From contig JAKSPK010000016.1 in the NCBI GenBank assembly GCA_024404875.1, positions 1-43,478 on the forward strand: DNA of 43,478 nt, read 5' to 3'. Shown here in pieces: positions 22,933 to 42,736 of the stretch. Position numbers and translations under genes: made by a program. Origin of the DNA: Oscillospiraceae bacterium. GTDB taxonomy: Bacteria; Bacillota; Clostridia; Oscillospirales; Ruminococcaceae. Below the pieces are notes generated by a model that saw nothing but the letters and a program-made list of their open reading frames with translations, ran no database searches and had not been told where the DNA came from. Positions within the stretch are counted from its first letter, which is position 1; each line of letters opens with the position of its first letter.

Positions 22933-23005
22933 GCTGGTGTAGCTCAGTTGGTAGAGCAGCTGATTTGTAATCAGCAGGTCGGGGGTTCAAGTCCGTCCAC
23001 CAGCT
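22933..23005 (+). tRNA. tRNA-Thr (anticodon TGT)
   Basis: Acceptor arms GCTGGTG/CACCAGC, D-loop AGTTGGTAG, anticodon stem GCTGA/TCAGC with loop TTTGTAA, and T-arm GGGGGTTCAAGTCC. CCA is not encoded. Confidence 0.97.
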
Positions 23006-23012
23006 TGAATAT

Positions 23013-23094
23013 GGGAGAGTTCCCGAGTGGCCAAAGGGGGCAGACTGTAAATCTGTTGCGTAATGCTTCGGTGGTTCAAATCCACCCTCTCCCA
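23013..23094 (+). tRNA. tRNA-Tyr (anticodon GTA)
   Basis: Acceptor arms GGGAGAG/CTCTCCC, anticodon loop CTGTAAA, a long class II variable arm and T-arm GGTGGTTCAAATCC. It follows tRNA-Thr by 7 bases and is co-transcribed. CCA is not encoded. Confidence 0.97.
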
Positions 23095-38481: not shown

Positions 38482-38511
38482 AAAAAGAAAAACCGCCCTT
38501 AACGGACGGTT
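38482..38511 (-). terminator. Terminator of the candidate small RNA
   Basis: On the minus strand ACCGTCC-GTTAA-GGGCGGT (7 bp, one G-T pair) is followed by TTTTCTTTTTC. Confidence 0.75.
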
Positions 38512-38577
38512 TACATTGAGAGAGGGTTTCCGTGAATTCAAAAGAGAGGGTTTTGAATCCGTGTATTATTTAGGTTC
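38482..38577 (-). ncRNA. Candidate small RNA, about 95 nucleotides
   Basis: An isolated minus-strand unit: promoter TTGCAT-N17-TATAAT (38584-38612), about 95 bases, then a terminator. The transcript holds a perfect 8-bp hairpin ATTCAAAA/TTTTGAAT (38536-38558) with loop CCCTCTC, a second single-stranded AAACCCTCTC (38520-38529), and the terminator stem. Two pyrimidine-rich exposed sites complementary to purine-rich Shine-Dalgarno sequences are typical of trans-acting sRNAs in Firmicutes. No open frame of note. I do not recognise a known family. Confidence 0.6.
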
Positions 38578-38583
38578 AATGCT

Positions 38584-38612
38584 ATTATAGCATAATATAT
38601 GAAAAGATGCAA
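38584..38612 (-). promoter_or_regulatory. Promoter of the candidate small RNA
   Basis: TTGCAT and TATAAT 17 bases apart; the -10 hexamer sits in the dyad ATGCTA-TTA-TAGCAT (38579-38593). Confidence 0.7.
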
Positions 38613-38755
38613 GGGTTTGTAATGCGATTCTACAATTATGTCATAAAACATGATTTTATTTGTGCATATTGACAAAAATGACGGCGGAATAAGGAATCCG
38701 GCTGCCGGAGTCGTATCAATATATGAAAGCAGCTTTCATCAGAATGGAGATCATT

Positions 38756-39304
38756 ATGGAACAGGGCGCAAATGCATACCGCCGCTATCTGGACGGCGAT
38801 CAGAATGCGTTCGCGGAGATCATCGAGGAATTCCGCGATCCGGTGACATTCTTTATCCAGCGATATGTGCATGATATCTGCGCGGCGGAGGACATCGCGG
38901 CAGATGTGTTTATGCAGCTTGTGGTTAATCCACAGAAATACAGATTTGATACGCCGCTGAAAACATATCTGTTTGTCATGGCGCGGAGCCGTGCGCTCGA
39001 TCATCTGCGGCGTGTGAAGCGCCGGAAGCAGGTGCCGCTGGAGGAAACAGAGGATACGCTTGCCGATACGCAGGATCTGGAGGAGCAGGTTTTGCAGAAT
39101 GAGGAAAAGCGGCGGCTGCATGAAGCGATCGGACAGCTGCCGGAGCCGCAGCAGATCGCGGTACATCTGGTTTATTTTGAGAGCTGCTCCTATGAGGCAG
39201 CTGCGAAAATCATGAAGAAAACCGTCAAGCAGGTAGACAATCTGCTTTACCGTGCCAAACAGGCGCTGCGCGGAATACTTGGTGAAGGGAGGGAGCAGCA
39301 GTGA
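38756..39304 (+). CDS. ECF-type RNA polymerase sigma factor
   Basis: The 182-residue protein has sigma region 2 (about 18-85; EDIAADVFMQLV and TYLFVMARSRALDHLRRVKRR) and region 4 (about 125-175; LPEPQQIAVHLVYFESCSYEAAAKIMKKTVKQVDNLLYRAKQALR). The ATG at 38756 has GGAG 6 bases upstream; an in-frame ATG at 38723 lacks a site. It heads a four-gene operon with overlapping or touching ends, and the next gene has the form of its membrane-bound anti-sigma factor. I could not identify a promoter with certainty. Confidence 0.93.
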   Translation: MEQGANAYRRYLDGDQNAFAEIIEEFRDPVTFFIQRYVHDICAAEDIAADVFMQLVVNPQKYRFDTPLKTYLFVMARSRALDHLRRVKRRKQVPLEETEDTLADTQDLEEQVLQNEEKRRLHEAIGQLPEPQQIAVHLVYFESCSYEAAAKIMKKTVKQVDNLLYRAKQALRGILGEGREQQ

Positions 39305-40125
39305 GAATGACGAATGAGGAATTTCAGGCGGAGGTTTTCCGCCGGAGCCGTGTATATCTTGCCAAGCAGCAGGCGCGCCGCCGCAGACTGTTTGCCGGTG
39401 CGCTGGCATTTGCCGGCTGCTTTGCTGTTGTGATTGCCGCTGCAAAGCTGCGCCCGATGACTGTGAAGAATGCCGGTGATCTGAGTTTTCAAAATGCCGT
39501 GCCGGAAAATTATGAAGCGATGGATAACGCGGCAGGAGAAGCGTATGATGCGGAATCTTCCGAGCAAGCCTGCGCGGAGATGAATGATGACGAAAATGGT
39601 ATCATACAGGGCATGACAATTCGGCCGTCCAAAACAGAGAACGAATGGGACGATGAAAAGTGTGAAGAGACTGCGGAGGAAAACGATGTGAATCAGGCTG
39701 AAGAAGCGCCGGATGCATCTTTCTTTGCGGAGATGACCGACAGCGAGCTGTTCGACTATTACGGTATCAAGGGCTTACCGGAAACGCTTGCAGGCATGAA
39801 CTATGCCGGAGCCGAAAATCAGATCCGCCGGCAACAGGGTCAGGCCGGAGTGGAGTATTTCTTCAGCGGCGCTGTTTCGGAGGACGGCAACATTTTCCGG
39901 TATCAGGATGCAGCAGGCGAAAAGCAGCTCTATGTGCTGATACAGACGATGGCTGCGGTTCATCCGCAGCCGGAGGATATGAACGGGATCCTCGCGGAGG
40001 ATGAAGATGCGAAAAAGGTGATCTTCTGTACCGAGACGCTCTATGTTACGGTGTATGCAGATGATCTGCCGTTTGATACGCTGAAACAGGCTGCGCAGGA
40101 GATGAAGGACGATCTCTCGCAGTGA
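39301..40125 (+). CDS. Putative membrane-bound anti-sigma factor
   Basis: The start is the GTG at 39301, overlapping the sigma stop by 4 bases (GTGA), with GGGAGGG about 8 bases before; an ATG at 39307 is in frame. The 274-residue protein has a short basic cytoplasmic N-terminus (about 1-28), one transmembrane helix (about 29-48) and an acidic exterior part of about 220 residues with a folded domain near 150-270. No zinc motif HxxxCxxC is visible. The role is inferred from gene order and topology. Confidence 0.8.
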   Translation: MRMTNEEFQAEVFRRSRVYLAKQQARRRRLFAGALAFAGCFAVVIAAAKLRPMTVKNAGDLSFQNAVPENYEAMDNAAGEAYDAESSEQACAEMNDDENGIIQGMTIRPSKTENEWDDEKCEETAEENDVNQAEEAPDASFFAEMTDSELFDYYGIKGLPETLAGMNYAGAENQIRRQQGQAGVEYFFSGAVSEDGNIFRYQDAAGEKQLYVLIQTMAAVHPQPEDMNGILAEDEDAKKVIFCTETLYVTVYADDLPFDTLKQAAQEMKDDLSQ

Positions 40126-40139
40126 GAGGAGGTACAAGT

Positions 40140-41474
40140 ATGAAGAAGGCAGTATTTATCATGATAGCTGCAGCGATGATGCTGACGGGCTGCGGCAGCG
40201 GCGTGACTCTACAGGGCCCCGATACCCGTACGCCCGGACTCGCCGAGCAGAGCGTTTTGCTGACACCGCCTGAGAATGAAACGGCCGCTGACGGGATCGG
40301 GCTCCGAGTGTCACAGGACTGCTTTCCGCCCGACACGGCATCAATCCCGATTACTATTGTCAACAACAGCGATGAGAGTATCGCATTCGGTGAGGCGTTC
40401 AAGCTCATCCGTGTATATGAGAACGGCGTACAGGAGACCGTGAAATTCAAAGAAGGCGGTGACTACTTCATAGATCTGGCACAGGAGGTTCCGCCGCGTG
40501 AACATACGCAATTCCGCGCAGATCTGGCGGCGCATTTCGATCTGCCGCTGGAAGAGGGCGATTACCGTATTGTAATCGAGGGCATGGGCGGCAGAGAAGC
40601 GGTTTTCAGCGTTTCAAAGGATGCGCCGCTGCCGTCTGATGAACCGCAGGCTGTGCAGATTTCTCTCCGAACCGATCAGGCCGTCTATGCGCCGGACACC
40701 GATGTGGTTCGCGTGATCGTGACAAATGAGGGAACCGAGGAAGCACATATCTCGCTTGTTAATTTCGGCATTGAGCAATTTACGGCGGAGACCTGCAGCA
40801 TGACGCCCTACAACGGAAAGATCGGCTGCGAGACGCGGCTTGGCGGCGCCGTGCCCGCAGGCGGTTCGGATCTCTGGGAGCTGTACCTCGGGGATTTCCC
40901 CGGTGTCAAACTGACCGAGGGCGAATATGCCGTATATTATGAGGGCGCGGAGGCGAAATTCTCCGTTCAGGCGAATGCTGATAATCCCGAAACGGACAGT
41001 GTGCCGGATATGCTGTTCTGTATGGAAACATCCATACCGGATGAATGTGAAGAAACCGGCGATCGCACAGATCTGATACTGATGATGAAAGACGGTACAG
41101 TCTGGAGCGGAGAAGGCGGCCTCACCGGTTCCGAGATCTCGGAGCTTTATCAGAAGCAGACGCTCGCGGAGCATTTTAGGATGCTGAAACAAGTTGAAGC
41201 GGATGCCGCACAAAGGCGGTATCTTAGGATCAGGGACGAGGTGCTGAAGGGTGAAAAGGTGAAGGTCAACTATCCGGGGGCACAACCGGCGGTCGAAGCG
41301 CCGCATACATATTGGTATACGGAGATCCTGCTGACAGCCGATGCATCGCAGCATATTACAATGGGCTCGGAATTTGCCGGCACATTCTCTGAAACAAATA
41401 ACGAGGTCGTGAATGCAGTCTGTGCATGGTTCCGGGATGTCTGCACCAGTCAGAAATGTAAGGAGACATCATAA
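40140..41474 (+). CDS. Lipoprotein with Ig-like domains
   Basis: The ATG at 40140 lies 7 bases after AGGAGG; a GTG-led frame from 40122 is less likely. The 444-residue protein has a lipobox LTGC (Cys18), then two beta-sandwich modules: about 40-150 (SIPITIVNNSDESIAFGEAF..., LPLEEGDYRIVIEG) and about 165-280 (TDQAVYAPDTDVVRVIVTNEG...), which resemble bacterial Ig-like domains (Big_14 type). The C-terminal 150 residues are of unknown fold. Third gene of the sigma/anti-sigma operon; its stop TAA overlaps the serpin ATG by one base. Confidence 0.88.
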   Translation: MKKAVFIMIAAAMMLTGCGSGVTLQGPDTRTPGLAEQSVLLTPPENETAADGIGLRVSQDCFPPDTASIPITIVNNSDESIAFGEAFKLIRVYENGVQETVKFKEGGDYFIDLAQEVPPREHTQFRADLAAHFDLPLEEGDYRIVIEGMGGREAVFSVSKDAPLPSDEPQAVQISLRTDQAVYAPDTDVVRVIVTNEGTEEAHISLVNFGIEQFTAETCSMTPYNGKIGCETRLGGAVPAGGSDLWELYLGDFPGVKLTEGEYAVYYEGAEAKFSVQANADNPETDSVPDMLFCMETSIPDECEETGDRTDLILMMKDGTVWSGEGGLTGSEISELYQKQTLAEHFRMLKQVEADAAQRRYLRIRDEVLKGEKVKVNYPGAQPAVEAPHTYWYTEILLTADASQHITMGSEFAGTFSETNNEVVNAVCAWFRDVCTSQKCKETS

Positions 41475-42736
41475 TGAATATAAAGCATATGATAAAATAT
41501 ATCACAGCAGGACTTGGCTGTCTGCTGATGGCCGGATGCAGTGTGCCGGAACAGCCGGATGAGCCGAGTCTGACGAGTGCGCTCACACCGCAAAATGTTT
41601 CCGGAAAAGATCCGGATGCGGCATTTTCGCAGGCACAGAACGGCTTTGCGCTGAAGCTCCTTCAAGAGACGGTCGCCGTGTGCACAGGCAAAAATATCCT
41701 GATCTCGCCCTATTCCGTAATGCAGGCGCTTGCGATGACCACAAACGGCGCGGACGGCGATACCCGTACGCAAATGGAACATACGCTCGGCGGGATCCCG
41801 ATGGAGCAGCTGAATCAATATCTGCTGGCGCAGCGCGGGGGAATGCCGGATTCTGAAAATGCGCGGTTCCGGACAGCGAATTCCGTCTGGCTGCGCGATG
41901 ACAAAAATCGGCTCGTGGTGAAACCGGATTTCCTGCAAACGCTTACGGATTTCTATGGTTCAGGTGCATTTGCACGGGCATTTGACGAATCCACGCGGCA
42001 GGAGATCAATCAGTGGTGCAGCGCACAGACGGACGGCATGATACCGGAAATGCTCAGCAATCCGATTGGTGCGGATGCTGTGATGCTCCTCATCAATGCG
42101 GTCTCCTTTGACGCCAAATGGGCAAGGCTTTATAAGAGGGAGCCATCGGATGCCAGCTTTACATCCTGTACCGGCGAGGTGCAGCAGGCGAAGATGATGT
42201 ACTCCGAGGAAGGACAGTATCTCTCGGATGACCGGGCGGAGGGATTTATCAAGCCTTATCGTGACGGATATGTCTTTGCGGCATTGCTGCCGGAGCAGGG
42301 CATTTCTGCAGAGGATTATCTTGCATCGCTGACGGATGAACGGCTGCATGAGATCCTGACCGGTGCGGAATTCTGCACGGTCGATGCGGGACTGCCGCAG
42401 TTTACTTATGATTTCGATATCGAATACAGCGGGATCCTTGCAGATATGGGAATGCCGCTGGCCTTTACAGAGAATGCGGATTTCACGAAAATGGCGGAAA
42501 CTGCGACGGGAGGGCTGTCTATCGGACAGGTGTTGCACAAGACGCATATTGATGTTGATACTGAAGGGACAAAGGCTGCTGCGGTGACGGCAGTTGTGAT
42601 GGAGCAAGAAGAAGCGGCGATGGAGCCGGAACCGCCGAAGCAGGTGACGCTTGACAGACCGTTTGTGTATTTCATTGCGGATGCGGAAACGATGACGCCT
42701 GTCTTTGCGGGTGTGCTGAATGCGATCCCGCAGTAG
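41474..42736 (+). CDS. Serpin (serine protease inhibitor) lipoprotein
   Basis: The 420-residue protein has a lipobox LMAGC (Cys22) and a complete serpin fold (about 50-420): ILISPYSVMQALAMTTNGADGDTRTQM, NAVSFDAKWA, and the C-terminal RPFVYFIADAETMTPVFAGVLNAI. The hinge of the reactive loop reads EGTKAAAVTA, the small-residue pattern of inhibitory serpins, followed by an acidic, extended loop (VVMEQEEAAMEPEPPKQ). The scissile bond cannot be fixed from sequence. AAGGAG is 8 bases upstream of the ATG. It would protect the outer cell surface from host or community proteases. Confidence 0.95.
   Translation: MNIKHMIKYITAGLGCLLMAGCSVPEQPDEPSLTSALTPQNVSGKDPDAAFSQAQNGFALKLLQETVAVCTGKNILISPYSVMQALAMTTNGADGDTRTQMEHTLGGIPMEQLNQYLLAQRGGMPDSENARFRTANSVWLRDDKNRLVVKPDFLQTLTDFYGSGAFARAFDESTRQEINQWCSAQTDGMIPEMLSNPIGADAVMLLINAVSFDAKWARLYKREPSDASFTSCTGEVQQAKMMYSEEGQYLSDDRAEGFIKPYRDGYVFAALLPEQGISAEDYLASLTDERLHEILTGAEFCTVDAGLPQFTYDFDIEYSGILADMGMPLAFTENADFTKMAETATGGLSIGQVLHKTHIDVDTEGTKAAAVTAVVMEQEEAAMEPEPPKQVTLDRPFVYFIADAETMTPVFAGVLNAIPQ

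Follow-up and report, generated by a model that had tools for sequence, protein, structure and literature searches.

The small RNA locus and its conservation

The window analyzed here is a stretch of 43,478 nucleotides (positions 1 to 43,478 of contig JAKSPK010000016.1, assembly GCA_024404875.1) from an Oscillospiraceae bacterium of the family Ruminococcaceae. Its minus strand contains a candidate small RNA (sRNA) gene with its own promoter and terminator. A sequence-only reading of the window had described this element as a candidate novel sRNA with two CCCTCTC sites, of the kind that masks Shine-Dalgarno (SD) sequences, and named no target. The features of the locus are as follows.

38612–38607, minus strand: −35 element TTGCAT, read from the sequence; the family consensus is approximately TTGCAA
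38589–38584, minus strand: −10 element TATAAT, an extended −10 (TGcTATAAT)
38482..38577, minus strand: predicted sRNA transcript of about 97 nucleotides, starting 7 nucleotides below the −10 element
38534..38560, minus strand: 5' hairpin with the loop CCCTCTC at 38550–38544, the proposed kissing loop, supported by fold, covariation and loop co-variation
38560–38551 and 38543–38534, minus strand: stem arms of the 5' hairpin, GGATTCAAAA and TTTTGAATTC
38529–38520, minus strand: second C/U site AAACCCTCTC, single-stranded in the fold, the proposed SD-binding site
38482..38512, minus strand: intrinsic terminator, stem 38512–38504 with 38498–38490 and a T-run to about 38481

The two promoter elements are separated by 17 nucleotides and TG precedes TATAAT, which corresponds to a sigma-70-type promoter with an extended −10. 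Transcription is predicted to start near 38577. The terminator was listed by the program scan. The promoter was missing from its consensus list, because TTGCAT agrees with TTGACA at only three of six positions. One mechanical open reading frame (ORF) of 45 aa (38538–38675, minus strand) covers the promoter and the 5' part of the sRNA but starts upstream of the promoter. The described 8-bp hairpin is present as the perfect inner part of a stem that the fold extends to 10 pairs, including one G-U. The second C/U copy (AAACCCUCUC) is located outside this stem, after the CCCUCUC hairpin. The predicted transcript folds with −21.9 kcal/mol (z −2.91), and 2 of 200 shuffles are equally good, so fold stability by itself is modest evidence. 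No Rfam family matches the sRNA at gathering score, and at E ≤ 10 the sole match is to a CRISPR repeat on the opposite strand. Promoter, predicted non-coding transcript, hairpin, second C/U site and terminator are thereby confirmed as described, and the sRNA is judged real because it is conserved across the genus.

In a BLAST search, 15 of 100 genomes contain matches, the own genome included. The whole element is laid out in 11 of the 15, and the remaining matches inspected are short and promoter-like. A covariance model (R1) built from seven sequences was searched in 30 genomes of the genus (genomes carry G numbers here, and loci L numbers). It matches 22 of them at E ≤ 0.1; two matches are false, leaving 20 true members. 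A 21st member, with a single CCCTCTC, was found by synteny beside the same sigma factor gene in G010, so that 21 of 30 genomes carry the sRNA. It is present in 11 of the 13 assemblies with at least 90% completeness and at most 5% contamination. The two that lack it, G015 and G016, are 99% and 96% complete; most assemblies are incomplete, and absence is uncertain in several. One copy is seen in the own genome by BLAST, and one true locus per genome among the R1 matches, that of G001 being split over two contig ends. A scan of named genomes gave 13 loci, 11 of them genuine; the named records carrying the element are uncultured Ruminococcus, Oscillospiraceae and Clostridia metagenome-assembled genomes, several from rumen. 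The other two loci (L089 and L093) are chance matches. Also discarded were the genus matches L045–L053, which are tRNA or terminator matches, and a match in G015 (G015:C38).

The 19 distinct sequences show standard pairs in 97.0% of pair cells. Shuffles give 7.6 pair cells with two-sided changes and a covariation score of 0.171; the observed values are 29 and 0.368 (in both cases 0 of 500 shuffles as high), in an alignment that had been fitted to the same structure. The number of pairs with two-sided changes is 6 against 3.8, which is equalled or exceeded by 30 of 500 shuffles. All of these changes fall in the 5' stem. The terminator helix has none, and its stem CCGTCC/GGGCGG is conserved. The second C/U site is absent or decayed in G010 and G027.

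Beyond the genus, a second model (R2) over 247 family genomes gave matches in 99 genomes at E ≤ 0.01, a few of these within the genus. The 28 loci from other genera that were inspected (L055–L082), the stronger matches under stricter filters, include no convincing member; they are terminators, tRNAs and similar sequences. The ten R1-negative genomes were searched for CCCTCTC pairs and TATAAT..CCCTCTC patterns, and nothing convincing was found except the G010 variant. Relatives of the neighboring sigma factor in these ten genomes are close only in G010 (66% identity), against 40% in G025, 39% in G014 and 31% in G011, and a check by eye upstream of the last three revealed no such sRNA. G025 contigs (e.g., L275, L283 and L289) contain dispersed CCCTCTC..CCCTCT repeats, 27 pattern matches compared with 0–3 in the nine other searched genomes, which are an unrelated repeat family. 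On a GH48 tree of 26 rows, sRNA presence requires five changes, and the sRNA-negative G006, G013, G015, G011 and G014 form one clade. Based on these comparisons, the sRNA is a conserved RNA family of the genus without an Rfam match. The sequence-only reading had proposed that a true sRNA would keep its CCCTCTC loops and stem in relatives and be found by a covariance search, and this is borne out by the 20 members found by model and the covarying 5' stem.

Complementary sites in cellulase messages

GAGAGGG is the exact complement of the sRNA loop CCCUCUC. In the own genome, GAGAGGG followed by ATG within 3–13 bases occurs 29 times, against 12 for the reversed pattern. An ORF of 60 aa or more follows 19 of the 29 sites, and six of these ORFs encode cellulase-type or dockerin proteins: GH48, two GH9, GH5, a Sortilin/BNR-repeat enzyme, here read as GH74-like, and a leucine-rich repeat (LRR)-dockerin protein. 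As background, GAGAGGG is seen in the last 22 bases before 4 of 355 gene starts; a simple gene caller placed these starts on 25 stretches, one group of small contigs being left out. GH48 starts contain GAGAGGGG in 28 of 28 genomes, with or without a detected sRNA. Dockerin-like repeats are visible by eye at the ends of the GH9 and GH48 proteins; Pfam made no such call, but for the GH9 tail there is a match (E 6e-7) to 5n5p_B, a chain from an entry for a cellulosomal scaffoldin complex.

A relative of one of the GH9 genes was found in 22 of 30 genomes, and comparison of the leaders shows that it mirrors the sRNA in having both a hairpin loop and a linear site. A 5' hairpin is followed by a second hairpin, typically CCAAAAAT-GAGAGGG-ATTTTTGG, and then by GAGAGGGG at the ribosome-binding site. 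The latter is present in 20 of 22 leaders, the exceptions being G011 and G014. The second hairpin with its purine loop can be aligned in 19 of 22 (G006, G011 and G014 are left out). It folds less well in G016, its closing pair is swapped in G007, and in G001, G002 and G028 a different stem (CCGGA/TCCGG) surrounds the same loop. Among 501 distinct GAGAGGG, AAGAGGG or ATGAGGG sites in 1.33 Mb, a sample that is redundant and, by its selection, enriched for these genes, 25 lie within hairpins of at least 6 pairs. Hairpins of at least 8 pairs number 16: 12 GH9 leaders, 3 on the antisense strand of the sRNA and 1 other. At L278, L282, L288 and L277, in genomes without a model-detected sRNA, the reverse-strand pattern matches are GH9 leaders with paired GAGAGGG. 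In some cellulase leaders (L163:1500, L336:1485, L346:1484, L156:1500 and L133:1500), the ribosome-binding GAGAGGG itself is located in the loop of a weak hairpin of 6–7 pairs; this could be a second kissing site.

The loops of the two RNAs often change together. Nine genomes have CCCUCUC in the sRNA and GAGAGGG in the GH9 leader, with the pairing extended to 13 in G001 and G028, 10 in G002 and 8 in G027. The corresponding loops are CCCUCAU and AUGAGGG in G020 and G024, CCCUCUU and AAGAGGG in G022 (10 pairs in all), and CCCUCUUA and UAAGAGGG in G004. These matched changes are not one event, because the GH48 tree places G022 apart from G004, G020 and G024. With shuffling that ignores the tree, exact 7-nucleotide loop complements are found in 13 of 16 genomes against 7.07 expected (p 0.00036), and in 8 of 11 representatives picked by eye against 4.09 (p 0.0091). 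Total pairing length is 128 against 111.5 (p 0.00074), or 84 against 73.3 among the representatives (p 0.004). Complementary loops co-varying between two RNAs, as in a kissing-loop contact, are thus what the comparison reveals, and the sRNA loop and the GH9-leader loop appear to have co-evolved.

These facts point to a trans-acting base-pairing sRNA of cellulolytic Ruminococcus, probably (at about 0.6) a loop-kissing, SD-blocking repressor of cellulosomal cellulases. The CCCUCUC loop would kiss the GAGAGGG loop of the GH9 leader through 7 pairs, and through as many as 13 in certain species. The single-stranded CCCUCUC would then pair with GAGAGGGG at the ribosome-binding site, and GH9 translation would be blocked. 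We infer repression over activation because the proposed pairing overlaps the ribosome-binding site. The mRNAs for GH48, GH5, the second GH9, the BNR-repeat GH74-like enzyme and the LRR-dockerin protein would be weaker targets, reached through the ribosome-binding site alone, because they contain only the GAGAGGG site there. Hfq, encoded in 29 of 30 genus genomes, may assist the pairing.

Besides the neglect of the tree in the shuffling tests, several observations weigh against this repressor model. The loops of G008, G003 and G010 misfit. The sRNAs of G000, G019 and G023 pair over 9–10 nucleotides with the G020/G024 leader and over 7 with their own. Mismatching a 7-mer costs a modest amount of energy (−11.5 for the matched pairing; −8.2 and −8.5 for mismatched ones). 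The other 13 of the 19 ORFs in the own genome are unrelated to cellulose, mixed or unknown, some of them clearly opened at internal sites, and across eight genomes GAGAGGG-N-ATG is only 1.0 to 2.8 times as frequent as the reversed control. Moreover, the GH48 site does not vary among genomes in which no sRNA is detected, and the sRNA-negative G006, G007, G015 and G016 retain purine sites in the GH9 leader; the sRNA-negative G011 and G014 have no GAGAGGG loop there.

The persistence of cellulase sites where no sRNA is detected is also what would be seen if an RNA-binding protein read the purine hairpin and GAGAGGGG, or if these elements served mRNA stability, with the match to the sRNA loop being coincidental or secondary. 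CsrA leaders combine a loop with the ribosome-binding site, and the GH9 leader resembles them in layout. However, in G020, G024 and G008 the loop is AUGAGGG followed by U, without GGA, and the loop changes are matched in both RNAs. Such a CsrA-like or stability role is considered unlikely. The longest complementarity, which reaches 13 pairs in both G001 and G028, is found in a dedicated leader hairpin, which would also suit a sponge that titrates the sRNA from other targets rather than being regulated itself. It is very improbable that the GH9 hairpin is such a sponge, since a complement at the GH9 ribosome-binding site would be needless for it.

The divergent sigma operon

On the other strand, the intergenic region leads into an operon for an extracytoplasmic function (ECF) sigma factor. 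The features here are as follows.

38756..39304, plus strand: ECF sigma factor gene, the divergent neighbor of the sRNA
39301..40125, plus strand: putative anti-sigma gene, assigned by position, without a Pfam or NCBIfam match
40122..42736, plus strand: genes for a Big_14 lipoprotein-like protein and a serpin, in the same operon
38690..38717, plus strand: ECF-type promoter of the sigma operon, TAAGGAAT ... CGTATC, recognized by eye
38628..38634, minus strand: TGTAGAA element at a fixed distance from the sRNA −10
38658..38663, minus strand: ACAAAT element at a fixed distance from the sRNA −10

The sigma gene is the constant neighbor, with its 5' end across the intergenic region in 20 of 20 aligned loci. 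The serpin cluster (F0) is seen on 17 of 21 contigs. The polyamine decarboxylase is on the other flank in 11 of 21 contigs, and 4 of the rest end close to the sRNA. The earlier description of the sRNA as standing alone between a sigma gene and a polyamine cluster is incomplete. For the ECF-like promoter (TAAGGAA..CGTA), 19 of 20 aligned rows contain CCTTA and all 20 contain TACG, read by eye on the reverse strand. TTTGT at 38676–38672 forms a weak inverted repeat with the ACAAAT element, and the TTTGT/ACAAA repeat is present in part of the loci. The idea of another, tandem promoter within the upstream box was dropped, being inconsistent across loci by eye. A Spo0A- or Rex-like nature of this box was also considered. 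The shared divergent promoter region suggests, without proving, a common signal to which both the sRNA and the ECF sigma operon respond.

The constancy of this linkage could also mean that the sRNA chiefly tunes translation of the sigma operon, with cellulases as side targets. Two of the four background GAGAGGG starts are in this operon, at a lipoprotein gene (L100) and a putative anti-sigma gene (L109), and the anti-sigma ribosome-binding site GGGAGGG of the window could pair with CCCUCUC using one G-U. However, the anti-sigma site varies (GGAAAGG in L105, L107 and L114), and it lies within the coding end of the sigma gene, where the protein sequence explains it. This coding constraint weakens the anti-sigma site as the main target, and a chief role in the neighboring operon is quite improbable.

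As a separate observation, the sigma mRNA has a palindrome, TGAAAGC-N-GCTTTCA (38724–38738), in its predicted 5' leader. Nearly all of the 20 loci keep it; L103 has a compensated variant, and L106 a long insertion. Elsewhere in the window, 22933–23094 contains two adjacent tRNA genes.

Relation to known systems and significance

RsaE/RoxS of Staphylococcus and Bacillus have C-rich single-stranded sites aimed at ribosome-binding sites. The Ruminococcus sRNA is similar to them in having such sites in a Gram-positive bacterium, and its exposed C/U sites are complementary to ribosome-binding sites, as in SD-masking C-rich sRNAs. This part of the sequence-only reading is upheld; the kinship with RsaE/RoxS that it had suggested is not, since there is no Rfam match and no UCCC in the window copy. 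The neighbors also differ. A UCCC motif in exposed loops is named for RsaE/RoxS (PMC4132741), whereas the window copy has ACCCUCUC in both the loop and the linear site, and UCCC is confined to individual variants, for example those of G020/G024 and G003.

In Listeria monocytogenes, the SD of lapB is blocked by the LhrC family, which comprises five near-identical copies with CUCCC/UCCC motifs and with a third site located in the terminator loop (PMC4132741). SD blocking is likewise proposed here. Compared with that description, the motif is ACCCUCUC instead of CUCCC/UCCC, one copy instead of several is present in the own genome, the terminator loop has no C-rich site (GUUAA in the window), and the target has its own complementary hairpin loop. 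As far as this comparison goes, the sRNA would work like LhrC but is not a member of it.

RNAIII of Staphylococcus aureus, a multi-domain RNA of about 514 nucleotides, combines loop-loop contact with SD pairing on rot and coa mRNAs. The same combination is proposed for the Ruminococcus sRNA, which is unrelated in sequence and only about 97 nucleotides long. For the cellulosome of Clostridium cellulolyticum, selective RNA processing and stabilization of the transcript are reported (PMC4423207). Both systems would set cellulosome subunit levels post-transcriptionally, there by processing and stabilization, here by a separate sRNA gene.

Taken as a whole, the interpretation given by the sequence-only reading is partly supported; what this analysis adds is the link to cellulases and the co-variation of the loops. 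A broader picture can be drawn, with about even odds: a genus-wide cellulosome riboregulator wired to the ECF-sigma/serpin operon, which has a co-evolving GH9 kissing loop and shuts the shared GAGAGGGG signal of the main cellulosomal enzymes.

The control of cellulase levels in gut Ruminococcus is poorly understood, and these bacteria are hard to manipulate. No sRNA governing a Ruminococcus cellulosome was found in the open-licence literature, which was searched in part. If the broader picture is true, this would be the first sRNA tied to a cellulosome, as far as that literature shows. With an sRNA and its target named, loop changes that compensate each other in nature and a possible sensor upstream, the question could be reduced to a few reporter experiments. 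The finding would also extend the reach of C-rich SD-masking sRNAs, described mostly in pathogens and Bacillus, to the control of plant-fiber degradation.
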